NCBI GenBank assembly: GCA_021826655.1
Contig: JAKAZC010000035.1
Coordinates: forward strand, 1 to 14,252
DNA: 14,252 nt
Direction: 5' to 3'
Origin: Actinomycetes bacterium
GTDB lineage: Bacteria > Actinomycetota > Acidimicrobiia > Acidimicrobiales > RAAP-2
Shown here: positions 1 to 10,005 of the stretch, piece by piece
Layout of the letters: each line of letters opens with the position of its first letter
Numbering within the stretch: the first letter of the stretch is position 1
Translations under genes and position numbers: made by a program
Notes under the pieces: model-generated
Databases searched by the model: none
What the model saw: the letters and a program-made list of their open reading frames with translations, nothing else
What the model was told of the DNA's origin: nothing

Positions 1-909
1 GAGGCCGCCCATCGAGCCGTGGAAGGGGGCGTCACCGAAGGCGAAGATGCCGCCGTCGGAGGCGACCATCCAGTAGCCGTGTCCGGAAGGAGTGGCCGCG
101 AGCCCGACGACCGGCCGGTCGAGCGGAGTACCGGCCAGGTCACCGCTGACGGGGAAGGTCCCATAGGCGATGACCCGGCCGAACGACGTGGCCATGGCGT
201 AGCCGCCGCCGTCGGCACTGGCGGCCATCCCGATCACCATGCAGTCGGTGAGCGGGGACGAACAGGGTGCGGGTGGGGGTGCCGGCGGCGCGGTGGTCCA
301 GCACGCGGCGTCCATCTCGGCCGTCGCGTTGTCGACCGCGAGCGTGGTCGTGCACGTCGGGTCGATCGTCCACGGCGGTACGCAGGCGACCACCCGGCAG
401 ACGATGCGTCCGATGCAGTCGATCTGCTGATTGCACTGCCCGTAGCGGAATTGGAAGCATCCGGTCGCCCACGAGTCGCAACCGGCGGGGCCGCAGCCGC
501 AGGTCGTCCCGTCGCACCCCGGATCGCAGAATCCCCATCCGTTGCCGCATCCGGTGGTGCAACCGCACGAGGCGTGGCAGTCCATGTAGTAGCGCGGCCC
601 GCCGCAGTAGGACGAGTTGTCGGCCTTCCACCAGCCTCCCATGACCGTGTCGGTGGGGCAGTAGTTGTAACCGTTGTTGATCGAACAGCAGAACTCCGAG
701 AACCCGGCGCAACACGTCGTGCCGCAGCCGCAGGACGTGTCGGCACAAGTGCACACGGCGGCATAGGCGGTGCCTGGGCGCAGGAGCAGGTCCACGCCGG
801 AGCCCACGGCCACCGCGCTGCCGACGACGGCCGAACGGTTGATGAAGCTCCGACGGGACAGCCGGGCACCGAGGAACGATGACGCCCGGTCCACCAGGGC
901 GGTGCTCAT
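1..909 (-). CDS. Tat-exported Cys-rich MauA-like light-chain protein fused to DGGxFAFGD repeats (3' end outside window)
   Basis: The visible 303 residues begin with a twin-arginine signal (SRRSFIN at 18-24, hydrophobic stretch, likely cleavage after AYA at 48-50), so the protein should be exported folded. Residues 53-223 hold 28 cysteines. The block around CPTDTVMGGWW (84-94), Tyr101, Tyr107/108, Asp110 and CG (115-116) lines up with the methylamine dehydrogenase light chain segment around its first cofactor tryptophan. From about residue 224 the chain becomes a tandem repeat module ([18 protein letters not shown] at 278-295) and runs off the window. The ATG overlaps the MauE-like stop as ATGA, which indicates translational coupling. 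MauA family members carry tryptophan tryptophylquinone in a Tat-exported periplasmic subunit. Here the second cofactor Trp is not clearly present (Asp164 in one alignment, Trp147 in another), so amine dehydrogenase activity is not claimed. The export signal and cysteine content are certain; the family link is inferred from the motif and from its neighbours. Confidence 0.72.
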   Translation of the reverse strand, partial: MSTALVDRASSFLGARLSRRSFINRSAVVGSAVAVGSGVDLLLRPGTAYAAVCTCADTSCGCGTTCCAGFSEFCCSINNGYNYCPTDTVMGGWWKADNSSYCGGPRYYMDCHASCGCTTGCGNGWGFCDPGCDGTTCGCGPAGCDSWATGCFQFRYGQCNQQIDCIGRIVCRVVACVPPWTIDPTCTTTLAVDNATAEMDAACWTTAPPAPPPAPCSSPLTDCMVIGMAASADGGGYAMATSFGRVIAYGTFPVSGDLAGTPLDRPVVGLAATPSGHGYWMVASDGGIFAFGDAPFHGSMGGL

Positions 910-1448
910 GCCGGCCCCCGGGTGATTCCGAGCAACTGGCGGGTGGCCCCCAACGTGGCCAGGCGGCCGAGCGCGAGGAAGGCCAACCACGCGCCCAGGA
1001 GGCTCACACCCGCCAGGGGCACACCGTGCCATGGCTGACCGGCCAGGAGGGACGGCAACCACCCGCCGGGGGCGGCCGCGGCCATGGCTGTCGCCGATGC
1101 CGACAGCGCGAGGTCCACGACGACATGGAGGCGGGTCGCCGGCGTATCGGGCGTGCCGAAGCAGCCGCAGGTCGCCAGTGGTCCGCCACGGGCGCGCGCC
1201 AGGGTCACGAAGGCGGCGAAGCCCAGGTAGGAGAGTGCGACGAGCGCGGCCGACGAGGTCGAGGGACGAGCCAGGCCGGCCACGCCCACGAGGGCCTCGG
1301 CGGCGGCGGCGGCACGGACGAGGAGGACCAGCGCGGCGAGTGGGACGGGAACCGTGGCGGCGGCGGCCCGAGCCGTGTCTCCCGGCCGGACCGCCTTGGC
1401 GACGCCGGCGGCGACGAGCAGCACGCAGGCGACGAGGTACGGACCCAT
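906..1448 (-). CDS. MauE/DoxX-family redox-associated membrane protein
   Basis: This is a 180-residue integral membrane protein with about four hydrophobic segments (roughly 2-20, 33-58, 66-84 and 106-127) and a fifth near 143-165. It carries a CGCFG motif at 94-98, the C-x-C pair characteristic of the MauE/DoxX redox membrane group. MauE is required with MauD to make the disulfide-rich light chain of methylamine dehydrogenase, probably by moving electrons or disulfides across the membrane. Its position directly upstream of a very Cys-rich exported protein fits that role. The start overlaps the preceding gene by one base (TGATG), and its stop overlaps the next start (ATGA), so three genes are tightly coupled. 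Family assignment is good; the substrate is inferred from context. Confidence 0.82.
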   Translation of the reverse strand: MGPYLVACVLLVAAGVAKAVRPGDTARAAAATVPVPLAALVLLVRAAAAAEALVGVAGLARPSTSSAALVALSYLGFAAFVTLARARGGPLATCGCFGTPDTPATRLHVVVDLALSASATAMAAAAPGGWLPSLLAGQPWHGVPLAGVSLLGAWLAFLALGRLATLGATRQLLGITRGPA

Positions 1449-1936
1449 CAGTTCCACGGCGCCCCCACGGACGCAGGAGCCGAGGTGGGCCCGACCGCAA
1501 GCTGGCCCAGCAGCGCGTTGACCCGTGGGACCAGTTCCGCCCGGCGGGTGTGGCCGCCCAGCACCACGTAGAGCGTGAAGGGGCGCCCGGCCTCGGTGAA
1601 GAACCACTGGGTCCCCGACTGTCCGACCAGGCCGCGCCGCAGTACGTAGGGGAGGAAGTCCGACGTCGACAGCCGCCGGGGCATGCCCGCCCGTGCGAAC
1701 AGCCGGGTTCCCGCGCTGTCGGGCCCGTATTCGAAGAGGGAGGCGAACACATCGCTGCCGGTCATGAGGTGCACCGCACCTCCGCCGAAATCGCCCACCT
1801 CGACGGGCAGGGCGAACGTGGCGAAGTGCGCCACCGCGCACGGCAATTCCGGGCCGGATCCCCGGCGCTTGAAGATCCGCCCTTCGAAGCCGGCAGGCAG
1901 GTCGGCGGTGATGCCGTGGGCGCTCATGGTCGCCAC
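1448..1936 (-). CDS. Unrecognised 162-residue protein in the mau-like operon
   Basis: I do not recognise the family. The product is about 162 residues from GTG at 1936, or 159 from ATG at 1927. Neither start has a clear ribosome binding site; the GTG lies two bases after the preceding stop and suggests coupling. It has no signal peptide, no membrane segment and only one cysteine (in ELPCAVAHF), which is unlike the other members of the operon. It looks like a soluble cytoplasmic alpha/beta protein, with alternating hydrophobic strands such as TQWFFTEAGRPFTLYVVLGG near the middle to C-terminal half. Since it lies between the MauD-like and MauE-like genes and overlaps the latter, a role in maturation or regulation of the exported Cys-rich protein is possible, but this is only inference from position. 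Confidence 0.75.
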   Translation of the reverse strand: MATMSAHGITADLPAGFEGRIFKRRGSGPELPCAVAHFATFALPVEVGDFGGGAVHLMTGSDVFASLFEYGPDSAGTRLFARAGMPRRLSTSDFLPYVLRRGLVGQSGTQWFFTEAGRPFTLYVVLGGHTRRAELVPRVNALLGQLAVGPTSAPASVGAPWN

Positions 1937-1938
1937 GG

Positions 1939-2772
1939 TCAGCCCGCCCGACGGACGTGCCGGTCGGACACGGGCATCCGGGCGTCAGGTGGGCCGTAGA
2001 GGTCGTCGAGCGAGGAGGGGTACAGGCTCGGGTCGCCGGGGTGGATCCCGGCGGCCCGCAGCTCGTCGTCGTTGGCCGACTCACGGGCGGGCCCGCCGAT
2101 CCCGATGTCTCGGTCCGCGCGTACCCCCGGGGCGAACGCTGCCGCGTCGACCTGGGCCCGACGCACCAGTTCGGCGACCTGGTGGAAGCGGTTGGCCACG
2201 CCTTCGCCGATCCGACGCCCCGACGATCCGTCGACGAGGACGAAGAACGGTGAACCGGGCACCTCGTAGTCGGTCCACGCCTCGCTCGACATCACGACCG
2301 CCAATCCGGGCGGTGCCAGTTCGGCGACTTCCCCAGGGATCTCACGGTCGGCGCCCTTGGTGACGACGACGAGACGGGTGCCGTCCGGCAGCCCGAGCCC
2401 CCCCGGGTCGCGGAACGACTCCCAGAACCCGGCGCACGACGAGCAGCCGGTCGACAGGAAGGCGAGCAGCGTCAGCCCGGCGGAGCCCGCCGGAGCGACG
2501 GCGAGGGCGTCGCCCCCCGGGGTCATCCCGGCGAGCGCCGGAGCGGACGTGGCGTCGCGTCCTGGGGCCAGGGTCGGCCCCAACGTGAGCGGCACCGCCC
2601 CTGGCCGGTCGGTGGCGGCGCGGCCGTGTCCCGTCACCTCCACTGGTTCCCCGACGCCCGCCCCGAGGTCGTGCAGGGCCTTCAGGATGTCGGCATGGCT
2701 GCGAAGCAGCCCGGCGACAAGGACGGCCAGGAGTAGGACGACGAGCGCGAGCAGGACGACGAGCGCGACCAC
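1939..2772 (-). CDS. MauD-like membrane-anchored thioredoxin-fold protein
   Basis: The 277-residue product starts with one strongly hydrophobic anchor (2-23), followed by an extracytoplasmic linker and a thioredoxin fold. The active site is STGCSSCAGFW, with Cys110 and Cys113 forming CxxC. A cis-proline loop is seen at VPGSPFFVLVDG (171-182, Pro175), also typical of the fold. MauD proteins supply or isomerise disulfides in the methylamine dehydrogenase light chain; the Cys-rich product three genes downstream is the obvious client. The reading frame is open to 2880, but the GTG at 2772 is chosen because a GGAGGT site lies five bases before it and the anchor begins immediately after. It is the first gene of the operon, with a large inverted repeat 57 bases upstream. 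Confidence 0.83.
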   Translation of the reverse strand: MVALVVLLALVVLLLAVLVAGLLRSHADILKALHDLGAGVGEPVEVTGHGRAATDRPGAVPLTLGPTLAPGRDATSAPALAGMTPGGDALAVAPAGSAGLTLLAFLSTGCSSCAGFWESFRDPGGLGLPDGTRLVVVTKGADREIPGEVAELAPPGLAVVMSSEAWTDYEVPGSPFFVLVDGSSGRRIGEGVANRFHQVAELVRRAQVDAAAFAPGVRADRDIGIGGPARESANDDELRAAGIHPGDPSLYPSSLDDLYGPPDARMPVSDRHVRRAG

Positions 2773-3373: not shown

Positions 3374-4294
3374 TCAGCCGGCGCCCGCCGTCTCGGCGGC
3401 CGCCTTGACCTCGGCGGCCTTCCGGTAGGCCTCGAGCTGGTCCAGGAGCGGCATGCGCTCCTGGCCGACCGTCGAGTCGAGCCGCGCCGCGATCTCCTCG
3501 GGGGTCCACCGTCCGTCGGCGTACACGGCCCGCACCTCTCGGGGCTGGTTCCAGACCGCGATCTTCGGGCCCACCGACGTGAAGACCTGACCGGTCACAT
3601 GCCGGGCCCTGTCCGACAGGAGGTACACCACCATCGGTGCCACGTCCTCGGGGTCGCCCATCTCGGCGAGGTCCATGGGCACGTTGGCCGACATGCGCGT
3701 GCGGGCGACGGGGGCGATGGCATTCGCGGTGATGCCGTACCGATGGAGGCCGGCCGCGGCCGATCGCACCAACGACACGATGCCGCCCTTGGCCGCGGCG
3801 TAGTTGGCCTGGGCCACGCTGCCGGCGAACGCCCCCGAGGTGAAGGCGACCAGTGCGCCACCGCCCTCCTGCTTGCGCATGACGGCGGACGCGGCCCGGA
3901 ATACGGTGAAGTGCCCTTTCAGGTGGGTCTCGATGACCGTGTCCCACTCGTCCTCCGCCATGTTGAACAGCATCCGCTCCCGCAGGATGCCGGCGACGGC
4001 GACCACACCGTCGATCCGACCCCAGCGCTCGACGCCGGTACCGACGATCCGCTCCCCGCCGGCCAAGGTCGTCACGCTTTCGGCCACGGCCACTGCATCG
4101 CCGCCGGCCGCGACGATCTCGGCGACGACGGCCTCGGCCACCTCGCTCTTCGGGTCCTCGCCCGCCATGGACACACCGATGTCGGCGACGACGACCCGGG
4201 CACCCTCGGCCGCCGCGGCCAGGGCGACGGCGCGACCGATACCCCCGCCGGCACCGGTGATGGCGACGACCTTGCCGTCCAGGAATGCAGTCAT
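3374..4294 (-). CDS. SDR-family dehydrogenase, Hsd4A-like (beta-hydroxyacyl-CoA / 17-beta-hydroxysteroid type)
   Basis: The 306-residue short-chain dehydrogenase has the dinucleotide-binding TGAGGGIG at 13-20, an acidic residue at the end of strand 2 (VVVADIG, Asp38) favouring NAD, and the catalytic Ser153, Tyr165 and Lys169 (YAAAK). The AGILRERMLFNM segment, the HLKGHF segment and the C-terminal extension after GQVFTSVGPK resemble the mycobacterial Hsd4A group, which oxidises 3-hydroxyacyl-CoA intermediates of the sterol side chain. The usual NNAG is VAVAG here (98-102), a small deviation. The start is supported by AGGAGC eight bases upstream. It is divergent from the acyl-CoA synthetase across a 280-bp gap containing a KstR-type operator. 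The SDR family is certain; the steroid or acyl-CoA substrate is inferred from similarity and neighbours. Confidence 0.88.
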   Translation of the reverse strand: MTAFLDGKVVAITGAGGGIGRAVALAAAAEGARVVVADIGVSMAGEDPKSEVAEAVVAEIVAAGGDAVAVAESVTTLAGGERIVGTGVERWGRIDGVVAVAGILRERMLFNMAEDEWDTVIETHLKGHFTVFRAASAVMRKQEGGGALVAFTSGAFAGSVAQANYAAAKGGIVSLVRSAAAGLHRYGITANAIAPVARTRMSANVPMDLAEMGDPEDVAPMVVYLLSDRARHVTGQVFTSVGPKIAVWNQPREVRAVYADGRWTPEEIAARLDSTVGQERMPLLDQLEAYRKAAEVKAAAETAGAG

Positions 4295-4393
4295 GGCGCG
4301 TTGCTCCTCGTGTTCGTCGTTCGGTTGTTCGTCGTGGCGACCGGTGGTTCACCGCGGCGCCGCCGCCGGAGCGCCCCCCGTCCGAAAGGCAGG

Positions 4394-4423
4394 TTGACCA
4401 CCTACTGGAACCTGTTCTAGCGT
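4394..4423 (+). promoter_or_regulatory. Promoter of the acyl-CoA synthetase gene with embedded KstR-type operator
   Basis: The -35 is TTGACC at 4394-4399; after an 18-base spacer the -10 is TAGCGT at 4418-4423. Between them, and overlapping the first two bases of the -10, is TGGAACCTGTTCTA (4406-4419), an exact fit to the KstR consensus TnnAACnnGTTnnA. A repressor bound here would block the polymerase. The same site could act on the divergent SDR gene, whose start is 112 bp away, though no good -10 is evident in that direction. The remaining gap, 4295-4393 and 4424-4574, holds no gene I can support. Confidence 0.68.
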
Positions 4424-4574
4424 CCCCACCGGGTCGGCGCCACCCCGCTCCCCGCCACCGTCCGCCCCCACGGGAACGAAACGGAGGCGGTGCGATGGAG
4501 TCCCCGCCGACCACCGTCCCACAGCACGACCGCGACGGTACCGCAGCGACGACGACACGGGGGAATGCGACGAC

Positions 4575-6125
4575 ATGGGTGATCTCGGTTTCTGGGCACT
4601 GGCGCACGAGCATCCGGAGCATCTGGCGCTGGTGGCGCCGGACGGCACCGAGTACACGTCGGGCGAGCTCCTCGCCCGGTCCAACCAGGTCGTGCACGGA
4701 CTCCGCCGTCTCGACCTCCAGCCCGGGGACGTGGTGGCCACCCTCCTGCCCAACGGGGTGGAGATGTTCGAGCTCTACCTCGCGGCGCTCCAGGCGGGCT
4801 GGTACCTGGTCCCGATCAACCACCACCTGATAGGACCCGAGGTGGCCTATATCCTCGCCGACTCGGGTGCAAAGGTCTTCGTGGCCCACGAGCGGTTCGC
4901 CGAGGTGGCGCTCGACGCGGCCGAGGAGGCCGAGCTCCCGTCCTCGATCTGCCTGGCGGTCGGGGACATCCCCGGCTTCGGCTCCTACGCCCGGATGCGC
5001 GACGTACAACCGACCGCCGACCCCGAGGGTCGGACGATCGGCGACGTCATGAACTACACGTCGGGCACCACCGGCAACCCGAAAGGCGTCTTCCGCAAGC
5101 TGAGCGGCCTGTCACCCGAAGAGGCCGCCCTGGGCCAGTCCGGGATCCTCTTCCTCTTCAACGTCCAGCCCCAGGACGACAACGTCCACATCGTGGGCTC
5201 GCCGCTCTACCACACGGCCGTGATGCGCTTCTCGGGCGCCTCGATCCACCTGGGCCACACCATCGTGGTCATGGACAAGTGGTTGCCCGAGGACATGCTC
5301 CGACTGATCCAGCAGTACCGGGTCACCACGTCGCACATGGTGCCCACCCAGTTCCACCGGCTCCTGGCCCTGCCGGCGGAGACCCGGGCGCGCTACGACG
5401 TGACGTCGCTCCGCCACATGATCCACGCCGCCGCACCGTGCCCGGTGGACGTCAAGCACCGGATGATCGACTGGTGGGGCGACGCCATCGACGAGTACTA
5501 CGCGGCGTCCGAAGGCGGCGGCACCCTGGTGAGCGCCCAGGAGTGGCTGACCAAGCCGGGCACCGTCGGGAGGGCGTGGCCGATCTCGGAGATCGCCATC
5601 TTCGACGACGACGGGAACAAGGTCGAGGAGCCGAACGTGATCGGCACGGTCTACATGTCCATGTCGACCGGCGACTTCGAATACCACAAGGACGAGAAGA
5701 AGACCAAGGGCAACCGCATCGGCAAGTACTTCACCGTGGGCGACGTCGGCCTGATCGACGAGGACGGCTACCTGTTCCTGCGGGACCGCAAGATCGACAT
5801 GATCATCTCGGGCGGGGCGAACATCTATCCCGCCGAGATCGAGAACGTGTTGCTCGGCTTTCCCAAGGTCGGCGACGTCGCGGTCTTCGGCATCCCCCAC
5901 GACGACTGGGGCGAAGAGATCAAGGCGGTCATCGAGCCGGCCGACGGAATGGAGCCGTCCGACGAGCTCGCCACCGAGATCCTCGAGTACTGCGCGACCC
6001 GGTTGGCCAAGTTCAAGACACCGAAATCGATCGACTTCACCGACGCCATGCCCCGCGATCCCAACGGCAAGCTGTACAAGCGCAAGCTCCGCGACCCGTA
6101 CTGGGAGGGTCGGGAGAAGATCTGA
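4575..6125 (+). CDS. Fatty-acyl/steroid acyl-CoA synthetase (FadD family)
   Basis: The 516-residue adenylate-forming enzyme activates a carboxylic acid to its CoA thioester via an acyl-AMP. The P-loop is YTSGTTGNPKG (161-171); further core motifs are YYAASEGGG (308-316), the ribose-binding region around GDVG (389-392), DRKIDMIISGG (404-414) followed by YPAEIE, and the C-terminal catalytic lysine in PNGKLYKR (Lys499). The length is typical and all motifs are intact, so it should be active. It is soluble, with no signal. The substrate is not readable from sequence; with an Hsd4A-like SDR, a FadA5-like thiolase and a KstR-type operator in the neighbourhood, a sterol side chain or degradation product is likely, but an ordinary fatty acid is possible. 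No strong ribosome binding site precedes the ATG; GGGGGAA lies 11 bases upstream. Confidence 0.9.
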   Translation: MGDLGFWALAHEHPEHLALVAPDGTEYTSGELLARSNQVVHGLRRLDLQPGDVVATLLPNGVEMFELYLAALQAGWYLVPINHHLIGPEVAYILADSGAKVFVAHERFAEVALDAAEEAELPSSICLAVGDIPGFGSYARMRDVQPTADPEGRTIGDVMNYTSGTTGNPKGVFRKLSGLSPEEAALGQSGILFLFNVQPQDDNVHIVGSPLYHTAVMRFSGASIHLGHTIVVMDKWLPEDMLRLIQQYRVTTSHMVPTQFHRLLALPAETRARYDVTSLRHMIHAAAPCPVDVKHRMIDWWGDAIDEYYAASEGGGTLVSAQEWLTKPGTVGRAWPISEIAIFDDDGNKVEEPNVIGTVYMSMSTGDFEYHKDEKKTKGNRIGKYFTVGDVGLIDEDGYLFLRDRKIDMIISGGANIYPAEIENVLLGFPKVGDVAVFGIPHDDWGEEIKAVIEPADGMEPSDELATEILEYCATRLAKFKTPKSIDFTDAMPRDPNGKLYKRKLRDPYWEGREKI

Positions 6126-6140
6126 CCCGGCGGCCGGTCA
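6123..6140. terminator. Palindrome linking two convergent stop codons, possible bidirectional terminator
   Basis: TGACCCGGCGGCCGGTCA begins with the TGA of the acyl-CoA synthetase and ends with the complement of the TGA of the thioesterase. Five outer base pairs (TGACC/GGTCA) enclose a G/C-rich centre with one mismatch. There is no T-run, so intrinsic termination is uncertain. Only 12 bases separate the two genes. Confidence 0.35.
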
Positions 6141-6905
6141 GGCGTCGGGGGCCGTGGTCCCCGACCCGGCCCCCGACTCGCCAGCGTCCACCCCCCGCCG
6201 CATCGCCGCGAGGAGCCCGTCGTCGGGACCGGTCGCGTTCTGCTCGGCGATGGCCAGCATCTGACGGGGTACCACCTCGATGAAGAGCCCGTCGGCCTCC
6301 GCGGTCAGCACGTCGTCGTGGTACATCGCCGCCCAGGTCCGGATCTTGCGACCTTCGCGCTCGAGGAAGCGGGCCTCGAGCCTGAGCTCGGTGCGCAGGG
6401 GCGTCGGCTTGCGGTACCGCACCGTGAGCGTTCCGGTCATGCCCGGGTTGCCGGCCACCATGTTCGCCGCACCCAGGATCTCGTCGAACGTGGCTGCAAT
6501 GACCCCACCGTGGACGCAACTGGGCGGGCCCTCGTAGGGGTAGTCGAACCACGCCGCAGCCCGGATCTCGGGCGTTCCCCCCGGGCCGTCGACCACCTCG
6601 AGCCGCACCGGCGGCGCGATCGGGTTGAGGATGCCGGCGATCGGGCTGGTCGGGAAGTACTCGACGCTGGGCCGGTCCGCGTCCGGAGGTTGCCGCATCC
6701 GGCGGTCGGTGCCCGCCCCTGCGGCAAGCGACGCGGCGATCCGCTCCACGGCGTCGGCCGCCGCCGTCAGGTCCTGGTCGTCGGGGGTGCCCGACACCGT
6801 CATGGCGATGAGCGGGCGCAGCGCCTCGGCCATGCGGAGCCGGGCCGTGTCGGGGTGGTCGTCCGGGAACGGGATCGGGCGGCGGCGGCCGGCGAGATCG
6901 CTCAC
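6138..6905 (-). CDS. PaaI/4HBT-type hotdog acyl-CoA thioesterase
   Basis: The 255-residue product has a variable N-terminal half (1-110) and a C-terminal hotdog domain. The central helix motif is [16 protein letters not shown] (130-145), with HGG (132-134) and the acidic Asp141/Glu142 where PaaI-like thioesterases place their catalytic acid. It is followed by the [14 protein letters not shown] strand pattern typical of the fold. Such enzymes hydrolyse acyl-CoA esters, releasing free CoA; in catabolic clusters they often relieve CoA sequestration. The GTG start overlaps the stop of the enoyl-CoA hydratase gene (GTGA), so both are one translationally coupled transcript, controlled by the operator upstream of the hydratase. 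The substrate is unknown. The C-terminal tail after about residue 215 is low-complexity and unlikely to be catalytic. Confidence 0.85.
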
Positions 6906-7696
6906 GCGCGGATGTAGACGGGAGGGCGCTTCTCCGCGAAGGCCCGCATGCCCTCGGCGGCGTCCGCGGTGGAGAAGATGGGCCAGCCGATCTCGAGGTC
7001 GGCGGCGAGCGCGTCGGCCTCCGACATCCCGTCGGTGACGCGCAGCGAGGTCTTGATGGCCTCCACGGCCAGCGGACCGTTCGACCCGATGACCCCGGCG
7101 ATCTCCAGAGCCTTGTCGAGGGCGGTGCCGTCTGGCACGACGTGGCCGATCAGGCCGACGTCCTTTGCCTCCGCCGCGCTCATCGACCGGGCGGTCAGCA
7201 GCAGATCCATGGCCACCGTATAGGGGATCTGCCGGACGAGCCGGACCACTGACCCGCCGAGCGGGTAGAGGCCCCGCTTGGCCTCGAAGAGACCGAAGAC
7301 CGCGCTCTCCCCTGCCACCCGGATGTCGGTTCCCTGGAGGATCTCGGTGCCACCAGCGACGGCATAGCCCTCCACCGCGGCGATCAGGGGCTTGGCCAGC
7401 TGGTGGTGGCGGAGAAGTGCCTTCCAGTGCAGGTCCGGGTCGGCGGTCATGCGCGCGGACACCTCGTCGTTGCCCGGACCGGACATCGACTTCAAGTCCA
7501 TACCTGAGCAGAACGTCCCACCGGCGCCAGTCAGGACGGCGCAGCGGATGTCGTCGTTGGCGTCGATCTCGGTCCAGGCGTCCACCATGCCCACCAGCAT
7601 CGGTCCAGAAAGCGAATTCTTCGCCTCCGGGCGGTTCATCGTCACGACTGCCGTCGTGCCGATCACCTCGTAGCTCAGGTGCTCGGTCTCGATCAT
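6902..7696 (-). CDS. Enoyl-CoA hydratase/isomerase (crotonase family)
   Basis: The 264-residue crotonase-fold enzyme adds water across the 2,3 double bond of an enoyl-CoA. Oxyanion-hole segments are [12 protein letters not shown] (from about 60) and GYAVAGGTE (110-118). Both glutamates used by true hydratases appear to be kept: Glu118 in AGGTEILQ and Glu138 in [15 protein letters not shown]. Hydratase rather than only isomerase or hydrolase activity is therefore plausible. The frame is open to 7777, but ATG at 7696 is preferred because AGGGAG lies eight bases before it and the crotonase domain starts at once ([13 protein letters not shown]). A KstR-like operator overlaps a -10 box about 110 bp upstream. 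The thioesterase follows with a 4-bp overlap. Within a KstR-type regulon it would act in beta-oxidation of a steroid side chain or another acyl-CoA. Confidence 0.9.
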
Positions 7697-7804
7697 GGTC
7701 TTGCTCCCTTCGGGGCGGGCGTCCTCCGCCGGTTCCCCCTCGTGCGCAGGTGCGCCGCGGTCGGTCAATTCCTCCACGAGCCCCGGCAGTGCCTTGGCCC
7801 CCGG

Positions 7805-7901: not shown

Positions 7902-9881
7902 TCAGGACGGTGACGGGCCGCCGGTGATCCCCACCACCGGGGCGTTCAGGGACTGACCCCCGGTCGAACCCTCGAACGGCGCGTCGCCGAACGAAAAGAT
8001 CCCGCCGTCGGAGGCGACCAGCCAGTAGCCCGCCCCCGTGTGCGACGAGGCCACGCCCACGACGGGACGCACCAGGGGCCGACCGCCCATCGACCCCGCG
8101 TAGGGTGCAGACCCGAAGGCGAAGACACCGCCGTCGGAGGCGACCAGCCAGTAGCCGTTGCCGGCGCCGGCCGGAACGGCCATGCCGACGACGGGGCGGG
8201 CCAACGTCAGTCCGCCGGTCGAGCCGAAGAAGCCGGCGTCCCCGAATGCGAAGACACAGCCGTCGGACGCGACCAGCCAGTAGCCGTCGTGGTCGGGGGT
8301 CGAGGCCAAGCCCACCACCGGTCGGGTCAGCCTCAGCGCACCGGTCGACCCGAAGAAGCCGGCCGAGCCGAAGGCGAACACCCCACCGTCAGCCGCGGTC
8401 TCCCAGTACCCAGGCGTCGCCGGGAGCGGGGCCGGGGGGCCGGGCAGGCCACCCGGGCCCGCGAACGCGTGCAGACGGTCCGCCGACGGGGCGATGACCA
8501 GCCCGTCGGCCGCAGCAGGCGACGGGAACGACGACGGATCCGAGCCGATCGCGAATTGCTGGACGGCACCGCCGTTCGCCGGGTCGAGCGCGTAGAGGGT
8601 TCCGCCGGTCACCGACCACACCAGTCCTCCGGCCACGATCGGCGAACCGTGGGCACCACTCGACGTGTGCCACAGGGCGGTGGGCGGTGCCGCTCCCGGC
8701 CGGACCGCCCGGAGGCCGTCACCGCACGGAACGAACAGTGTCCCGTTGAGGTCGGCCGATCCGCCGAAGGCGTCGGCGCCGCAGAAACCGGGGGTGGCCG
8801 CCACCTGGCCGCCCACACCGCCGAGCGGAGACTGGTGGAGCACGAAGGCCGTCTTGGACTTGCCCACCTGGAATGCGAGTCCGTCGGGAAGCAGGACCGG
8901 GGCTACGGAGCCCAGGTCGGCGTCTCCTCCGTTGTCGGACGTCCATGAGGACGGGGCGAACGAGTCGAGGAGGGTGGCCGTGGGAGTCAGTTTGAGAACC
9001 CCGTCACTGGCGTCGTACGGATCTCCGGCCGACGAGTAGGCGCTGTTGCCCGTGGCTACCCACACGTTGCCCTGGGCGTCGACCGACGGAGCCGCGCCGC
9101 CCATCCACACCGCACCCTGGCCGTCGTGGGGCAGTCCCGCCACGGTGAACACCGCGGTCGGGCCACCGGACTCGGGGGCGGACACGACGAGACCGTGGTA
9201 CGGGCCGCAATCACCGTCATTGCCGCCGAAACCGACGATCACCCGCCCGTCGGTCAGAGCCAAGGACGCCCGTTGCAGCTCGTAGGCGGGGACGGTGCCC
9301 GGCGGGTCGATCACCTCGTCGAGGAGGACCGTTCCGCTGTAGAGGTCGAGGCCGATCAGGTGGTGGGAGGCCCCGCCCGGCACCTGTTCGGCGGCGACGA
9401 CGAAGATCTCGTCGTGTGCCGCGTCGATCACCGGCGTCGAGGTGATGCCGACGGTCGGGGTGATGTCGCCACAGATTCCGGACACCGTCGACGGACTGAA
9501 CGGCGTTCCGACGTGGGTCGACCACAGGATCGCTCCGGTGACGGCAGCGAAGGCGTACACGGTGTCGTTCTCGGTGGCGGCGAAGACCCGGCCTGTCGCC
9601 ACCAGTGGCTGGCCGTAGAGGCTCCCGTCGAGCGCGGGCGTCGTCCACGCCGGGCCGGCGGGCGAAAACGAGGCGCCCGAAGCATCGACACCGGTCCGCG
9701 ACCCGTTCTGGTCGAAGGTGGTCCACGAGGAGTCGGTCACTGTGTGGGTGACGACACCTGCGCCTCCCGACACTGCCACGGCCCCGGCTGCCGCCCCCAC
9801 CGTGGCCACCACGGTGAGCGCGACCGGTCCGGCGAGCCGCCGGCCCGCACGGGCCGGCGACGAGGACGGGTGGAGGCGCAT
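7902..9881 (-). CDS. Secreted PQQ-like beta-propeller protein with four C-terminal DGGxFAFGD repeats
   Basis: The 659-residue exported protein has an N-terminal signal ([20 protein letters not shown] within residues 13-33). Residues about 50-480 form a quinoprotein-like beta-propeller with several blade signatures, for example [32 protein letters not shown] and DRLHAFAG. Such folds occur in PQQ dehydrogenases and in non-enzymatic BamB-like proteins; I cannot place PQQ or metal ligands, so enzymatic activity is unproven. From residue 491 to the end are four 42-43 residue repeats with the pattern [25 protein letters not shown], the same module seen on the MauA-like protein at the left edge. The start is uncertain: ATG at 9881 gives the best signal peptide, while GTG at 9923 is in frame; neither has a clear spaced ribosome site. 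It sits alone between lipid catabolism genes. Confidence 0.82.
7905..8411 (-). repeat. Four tandem 126-129 bp coding repeats (GYW...DGGxFAFGD module)
   Basis: Units lie at 8286-8411, 8157-8285, 8031-8156 and 7905-8030, all in frame. The best-kept DNA core is the complement of GCCGTCGGAGGCGACCAGCC, which recurs once per unit with few changes and also occurs near 50-72 in the MauA-like gene. Each unit begins GYW and has one strongly conserved DG(G/C)xFxFG strand pair. Position and length suggest a small beta-propeller or beta-solenoid at the protein C terminus. Confidence 0.85.
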
Positions 9882-10005
9882 CCCCCCATGCAACCACGTG
9901 TACGGGTGACGCCGTACCGGCACCCCGGAGGTACCCGGAGCGACAGTGTGGCGAGGGCATCGGGCCGAGGACCGACCGGTTGGCGACCGGCCCCGGGCCG
10001 CCGCC

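Follow-up and report, generated by a model that had tools for sequence, protein, structure and literature searches.

A conserved actinobacterial cassette combines MauD-, MauE- and MauF-like proteins with a cysteine-rich exported domain that may descend from MauA

The window analysed here is the whole 14,252-nucleotide stretch of contig JAKAZC010000035.1 (assembly GCA_021826655.1, Actinomycetes bacterium, Acidimicrobiales), whose first 2,772 nucleotides carry four genes on the minus strand: a MauD-like protein, an uncharacterised 162-residue protein that we call u162, a MauE-type membrane protein and a cysteine-rich protein with a signal for the twin-arginine translocation (Tat) pathway. These genes belong to a conserved cassette which, in most relatives, includes a fifth, MauF-like gene whose motif codon alternates between cysteine and UGA. 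The features of the window are as follows:

1939-2772, minus strand: MauD-like membrane-anchored thioredoxin-fold protein (277 amino acids, GTG start, CSSC motif)
1448-1936, minus strand: u162, uncharacterised (162 amino acids, without obvious signal peptide, no Pfam family)
906-1448, minus strand: MauE-type membrane protein with CGCFG (PF07291, E=3.6e-11, 43.9 bits, cut-off 27)
1-909, minus strand: cysteine-rich Tat-exported protein, incomplete at the window edge (303 residues visible)
760-909, minus strand: Tat signal peptide, residues 1-50 (TIGR01409; the conserved n-region resembles MauA signals)
295-759, minus strand: MauA-like cysteine-rich domain, residues 51-205 (by alignment, invariant residues, the AlphaFold2 model of relative L038 and structural comparison)
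1-240, minus strand: start of a C-terminal GYW(L/M) repeat module (from sequence; belongs to a swappable module class)

A conserved gene set around a cysteine-rich domain

The initial annotation had described four coupled genes encoding a membrane thioredoxin with a CxxC motif, a 162-residue protein, a CGCFG MauE-type protein and a Tat-exported protein with 28 cysteines, and on all of these points it was correct. The MauD stop and the u162 start are separated by a 2-nt gap, the u162/MauE junction reads TGATG and the MauE/cysteine-rich junction ATGA. The cysteine-rich product has 28 cysteines, all within residues 53-223 of the 303 visible, and its Tat signal scores 17.9 bits against TIGR01409, above the NCBIfam cut-off of 16.7.

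Protein searches returned 902 homologues of the window type at E<=1e-3, far above chance, and 1105 of a second type (the best 120 of each were examined, and the two sets may overlap). One homologue named as Acidimicrobiales (P0002) is 93% identical to the window protein, and across residues 1-210 all 26 cysteine columns are conserved in more than 90% of 121 sequences (the window and the best 120 of the 902). Genome counts, made with an alignment of 24 mature domains (A3), placed the domain in 85 of the 395 genomes from the class to which genome G009 belongs, in 26 of 66 from the class of G612 (the 66 share none with the 395 and are taken as a second class) and in 30 of 396 genomes sampled over the phylum. 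A scan of genome contigs gave 38 loci, and in plasmid records the domain was not found at E<=1e-5.

We examined 123 unique domain loci, 54 of which have flanks of at least 4.5 kb on each side. MauD-, u162- and MauE-like genes lie within 6 kb of the domain, on either strand, in every one of these 54 wide-flank loci; counted on the same strand over all 123 loci, MauD is present in 102, u162 in 98 and MauE in 105, the misses falling mostly on short pieces. Gene order varies between locus types, and the set has therefore been kept together through rearrangement. Consistent with Tat export, an Arg-Arg pair occurs no more than 75 residues upstream of the domain in 121 of the 123 loci. The open-licence literature, judged by title and start of abstract, describes no such cassette.

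The distribution of u162 follows that of the domain closely: u162 occurs in 87 of the 395 genomes and the domain in 85, with 84 shared (Fisher 3e-81, not corrected for phylogeny), and u162 is scarcely found outside the cassette. Three genomes (G088, G296 and G357) have a u162 match without a match to the cysteine-rich domain, two of the three u162 matches being partial. Pfam offers no family for the window protein and no credible one among 24 relatives; two isolated matches at 0.03-0.06, each in a single member of the 24, were taken as chance, and a comparison with MauJ showed no relation.

MauD, MauE and a MauF-like fifth gene

To our knowledge, work on MauD, MauE and MauF has been confined to methylamine dehydrogenase (MADH) clusters, in which their role is difficult to distinguish from the biogenesis of tryptophan tryptophylquinone (TTQ). 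Hidden Markov models (HMMs) of the cassette's MauD and MauE families match canonical MauD at 7.3e-13 and canonical MauE at 6.2e-12 (eight proteins searched in each case), which supports a real kinship of both proteins with their mau counterparts. As in the mau clusters, a membrane-anchored thioredoxin-like protein with CxxC and a membrane protein with CGCFG are encoded beside the substrate, and both cysteines of the CxxC are invariant in 24 of 24 MauD relatives. At E<=0.01 the curated MauD model TIGR02661 recognises 11 of the 24 members of the family, the best at 1.5e-8 (values given without reference to its curated cut-off). The window's own MauD is missed by this model, and the window proteins gave no thioredoxin match against Pfam and NCBIfam. 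The cassette MauD further differs from TIGR02661 proteins in a conserved C-terminal extension of the GDPSLYP type, and the cassette MauE (PF07291) sometimes shares one frame with the substrate (P0092 and P0259), either a real fusion or an artefact. MauE and MauD homologues also occur away from mau genes in Streptomyces candidate clusters for ribosomally synthesised and post-translationally modified peptides (RiPPs); in the part of PMC7794033 considered here they are proposed to act on small precursor peptides, whereas the substrate in the cassette is a conserved exported protein, and MauE is speculated to take part in forming the disulfides of the MADH beta subunit.

MauD and u162 share a strand in 84 loci; in 41 of these the two genes are separated by at least 450 bases, and this gap encodes a membrane protein that is MauF-like. 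Its family HMM matches canonical MauF at 1.8e-20 (eight proteins searched, next best 0.006), and a profile-profile alignment by hhalign gives 98% probability over 156 aligned columns. Of 7 cassette members compared with Pfam, 4 show weak matches to DsbD_2, all below the cut-off; the MauF-like proteins have no Pfam match above cut-off and no NCBIfam match at E<=0.01, and the canonical MauF scanned behaves likewise. The gene is present in 85 of the 123 loci and 46 of the 54 with wide flanks, the eight without a match being L030, L033, L036, L093, L102, L119, L121 and L124. The window itself has no MauF-like match. In the window-type loci that do (18 of L001-L021), the centre of the match lies 0.4-1.5 kb past that of the cysteine-rich frame on the same strand; the window's copy would therefore lie to the left of position 1. 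The earlier suspicion that the operon runs on past position 1 is thus borne out in relatives, where the cysteine-rich and MauF-like genes are followed by Lgt, a short-chain dehydrogenase/reductase (SDR) gene and an NlpC/P60 gene in L020, and by Lgt in L006.

At their first membrane segment the MauF-like proteins carry the motif WSPCG, which canonical MauF shares. In the cassette, however, the codon of its cysteine (before GESM) is TGA in 50 of the 79 loci with the motif (among them L022, L035 and L096) and TGC or TGT in the other 29. An open frame of at least 20 codons precedes the TGA in 50 of 50 loci, and the preceding RSxWSP residues are identical in the two forms. The genomes differ in their selenocysteine (Sec) machinery, again without correction for phylogeny: SelA (TIGR00474) is encoded in 47 of 48 UGA genomes against 4 of 15 Cys genomes, and a tRNA-Sec scoring above 55 bits in 46 of 48 against 3 of 15. 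The rules for the bacterial selenocysteine insertion sequence (SECIS), as given in the part of PMC13188914 considered here, require a loop that is 3-9 nt long, has a G among its first two positions and follows the UGA at a distance of 16-37 nt; applying these loop and spacing rules without the free-energy rule of the same source, we found a stem of at least 6 bp in 47 of 50 UGA loci and 5 of 28 Cys loci, while shuffled sequences gave one in 22-23% of cases.

Taken together, these observations make the UGA form of the MauF-like gene a probable selenoprotein, probably of a new family. An in-frame UGA could also mark pseudogenes or a different start, and in the loci inspected the stretch that follows the UGA forms an open frame of its own, about 200 codons long. 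Against this, the UGA falls at one exact codon in all 50 loci, 29 others have a cysteine in its place after the same residues, and it is accompanied by SelA, tRNA-Sec and a SECIS-type hairpin, so that we give the pseudogene explanation very little credence. The gene resembles known prokaryotic selenoproteins in being a thiol-redox protein, in its UGA/Cys pairing and in its SECIS geometry; the text of PMC13188914 contains no words starting with Mau or methylamine, and its sole DsbD entry is TsoB, a rhodanese/DsbD fusion. A MauF selenoprotein is likewise absent from NCBIfam and from the open-licence literature at the level of titles and abstract openings. Among the window-type relatives L001-L021, the 18 that carry the motif all have cysteine, and the window's own MauF-like gene is therefore probably of the Cys form.

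Relation of the cysteine-rich domain to MauA

The initial annotation had likened the cysteine-rich domain to MauA, the MADH light chain, a resemblance for which the evidence proved mixed. The domain (NxCP...GWW...RYYxDC...CxC...FRYGQC...IxCRVVxC..PW) and MauA carry the motifs NxCPPGT, W, DC and CxC in the same order, and the n-regions of their signals are similar (LVExxxR...RR); the whole-signal HMM was dropped as a test of MauA kinship, two E. coli signals scoring like MauA. In comparison with the light chains of methylamine and aromatic amine dehydrogenases (PF02975), the domain shares a Tat-type signal, an even number of cysteines, the motif order and the MauF, MauE and MauD partners, all of which are encoded beside it in relatives. 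The hhalign comparison with MauA is borderline (P about 0.002, with 1 of 150 shuffles as high). Modelling with 34 close homologues yielded a structure of low confidence (predicted local distance difference test, pLDDT, 31.6), and the usable AlphaFold2 model is that of relative L038; all 18 matches that a structural aligner listed for it are TTQ light chains, a weak but specific signal.

Several results weigh against common descent. The window's cysteine-rich protein matches no Pfam family at E<=0.1, PF02975 included; PF02975 is above cut-off in none of 16 cassette genomes; and the window proteins have no light-chain match in Pfam or NCBIfam. HMMER comparisons of MauA with the family are not significant in either direction (the best real scores are 0.0 and 3.0 bits, and reversed decoys reach -1.3 and -3.5), the Z scores of the structural matches are low, and Foldseek with the L038 model returned four matches, none below E 7. 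A PDB sequence search with the cysteine-rich protein gave a single match at E=7, taken as chance. These negatives would suit a domain unrelated to MauA, namely an adhesion or wall module rich in disulfides, for whose oxidative folding MauD-, MauE- and MauF-type helpers were recruited. Its wall-binding tails fit a structural role, and the MauE and MauD homologues of the Streptomyces candidate RiPP clusters, which stand without other mau genes in the part of PMC7794033 considered, offer a precedent. Given the co-linear motifs, the shared partners and a weak fold signal confined to TTQ light chains, we nevertheless judge independent origin unlikely and infer that the N-terminal domain descends, with much divergence, from MauA. 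The most divergent members, L139-L142, end right after the domain without a tail and may be near an ancestral stand-alone form.

In its chemistry the domain departs from MauA. MADH requires two tryptophans joined by MauG, printed as residues 57 and 107 in the part of PMC6405878 considered here and numbered Trp57 and Trp108 on the mature chain used for our alignment. The first site is kept, as GWW, in 122 of 122 domains; for the second, no column between mature residues 101 and 121 has Trp in at least 10% of the 122 domains, and the next frequent tryptophan, W130 (105 of 122), lies outside the range aligned to light chains. Lacking the second tryptophan, the domain would therefore carry no TTQ and need neither heavy chain nor MauG. 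In line with this, the earlier reading of a locus without MauB and MauG holds well beyond the window: among 30 cassette genomes of unstated completeness, MauB (PF06433) is found in none, the control record matching at 4e-175, and a MauG-type domain (PF03150) in one, G125, with none in the other 29. The canonical mauB and mauG genes that might have stood directly downstream were not seen in the L020 and L006 stretches. The G125 match (C1:3622829-3623425, in a 710-residue frame) lies on the same contig as that genome's cassette, some 1.8 Mb away.

An ordinary TTQ amine dehydrogenase with its heavy chain and MauG elsewhere in the genome would account for the presence of MauF, MauE, MauD and a Tat-exported cysteine-rich protein, the core of mau clusters; with MauB missing throughout, MauG-type domains so rare, no second conserved tryptophan at the TTQ position and PF02975 negative, we regard it as scarcely credible. 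The domain might instead be an enzyme that arose from MauA but uses another protein-derived cofactor; its invariant Trp-Trp, Tyr, Asp and FRYGxC residues would then build, on the scaffold of the light chain, a new catalytic site that acts on amines or some other substrate at the cell surface. Invariance does extend beyond the cysteines, to 13 residues in 122 of 122 domains (N32, P35, G42, W43, W44, R56, Y57, D60, F104, R105, Y106, G107 and R122, mature numbering), and the conserved Asp lines up with that of the RDC motif in MauA. Yet a MauG-type domain occurs in only that one genome, although a modifying enzyme of another family may sit in the neighbourhood. The number of cysteines ranges from 16 to 28, against 12 in MauA, and 116 of 122 domains have an even number, which leaves no free cysteine for a link of the cysteine tryptophylquinone type. 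Such an enzyme seems to us rather improbable, though worth keeping in view; the even cysteine count points to a domain whose cysteines may all be paired as disulfides.

The domain is usually fused, again unlike MauA, to C-terminal modules, and Pfam recognised in 109 tails LGFP (18), SLH (9), CWB2 (5), FG-GAP_3 (5), RCC1_2 (5) and a ricin-type lectin (1). By motif, 33 of 122 tails have GYWLV repeats, 21 GDWxGDG, 13 PFG/HGF (one locus falling in two classes) and 43 others, and 13 are shorter than 40 residues, at least L028 and L116 ending with their contig. The repeat module, which the initial annotation described as continuous with the light-chain-like domain, does not define the system: in relatives its place is taken by LGFP, SLH, CWB2, FG-GAP-like, lectin or other modules, and some loci lack it. 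As the commonest recognised tail families are wall or surface binders, the domain is probably held at the cell surface. A 673-residue protein with a PQQ_2 propeller at window positions 7902-9923 (minus strand) ends in copies of the GYW(L/M)-type repeat found after the cysteine-rich domain, so that the repeat is a shared module in the window's genome. The cassette is flanked at 3374-7777 by genes which, from their sequence, we take to encode an SDR, an acyl-CoA synthetase, a thioesterase-like protein and an enoyl-CoA hydratase; they look syntenic in L006 and L020.

A proposed envelope thiol-redox pathway

We consider it likely that the cassette is a dedicated system built on the MauF-MauE-MauD-substrate part of the mau cluster, without MauB, MauG or amicyanin (for which no search was made), and with u162 as an extra partner and a TTQ-free, MauA-descended substrate. 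The substrate would keep the signal n-region, the hairpin with the first TTQ tryptophan site, the conserved Asp and the all-disulfide character of MauA, and lose the second tryptophan. The MauF-like protein, DsbD-like and with Sec or Cys at WSP-U/C-G, may carry thiol reducing power across the membrane, which MauD, through its CxxC, and MauE could use to form or sort the disulfides among the 16-28 cysteines of the substrate. Lacking a signal peptide, u162 may serve the Tat substrate as a cytosolic helper, and the variable C-terminal modules would then anchor the domain at the cell surface.

This arrangement bears out one half of the suggestion that the locus encodes a distinct exported redox system using mau maturation machinery: the MauF, MauE and MauD helpers are there without MauB, whereas the label of redox protein is unproven for the cysteine-rich product. 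It can be argued that the redox chemistry sits in the helpers, in the CxxC of MauD and the Sec or Cys of the MauF-like protein. Taken as a whole, and more tentatively, the cassette might be an undescribed actinobacterial envelope thiol-redox pathway, in which a MauF-like selenoprotein with interchangeable Sec and Cys drives folding by MauD and MauE of a TTQ-free, MauA-descended domain, with u162, swappable tails and a new surface binding or catalytic site made of Trp-Trp, Tyr, Asp and FRYG; we put this forward with some doubt.

The MauF-like proteins appear to be a selenoprotein family for which NCBIfam has no model, and the displayed domain and u162 are two more conserved proteins without assigned function. 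Since the cassette keeps the helpers and a light-chain-like substrate without MauB or the second tryptophan, and with MauG rare, it isolates the folding role of these proteins and makes it directly testable, and the Sec/Cys interchange in the MauF-like gene pinpoints the residue to test.

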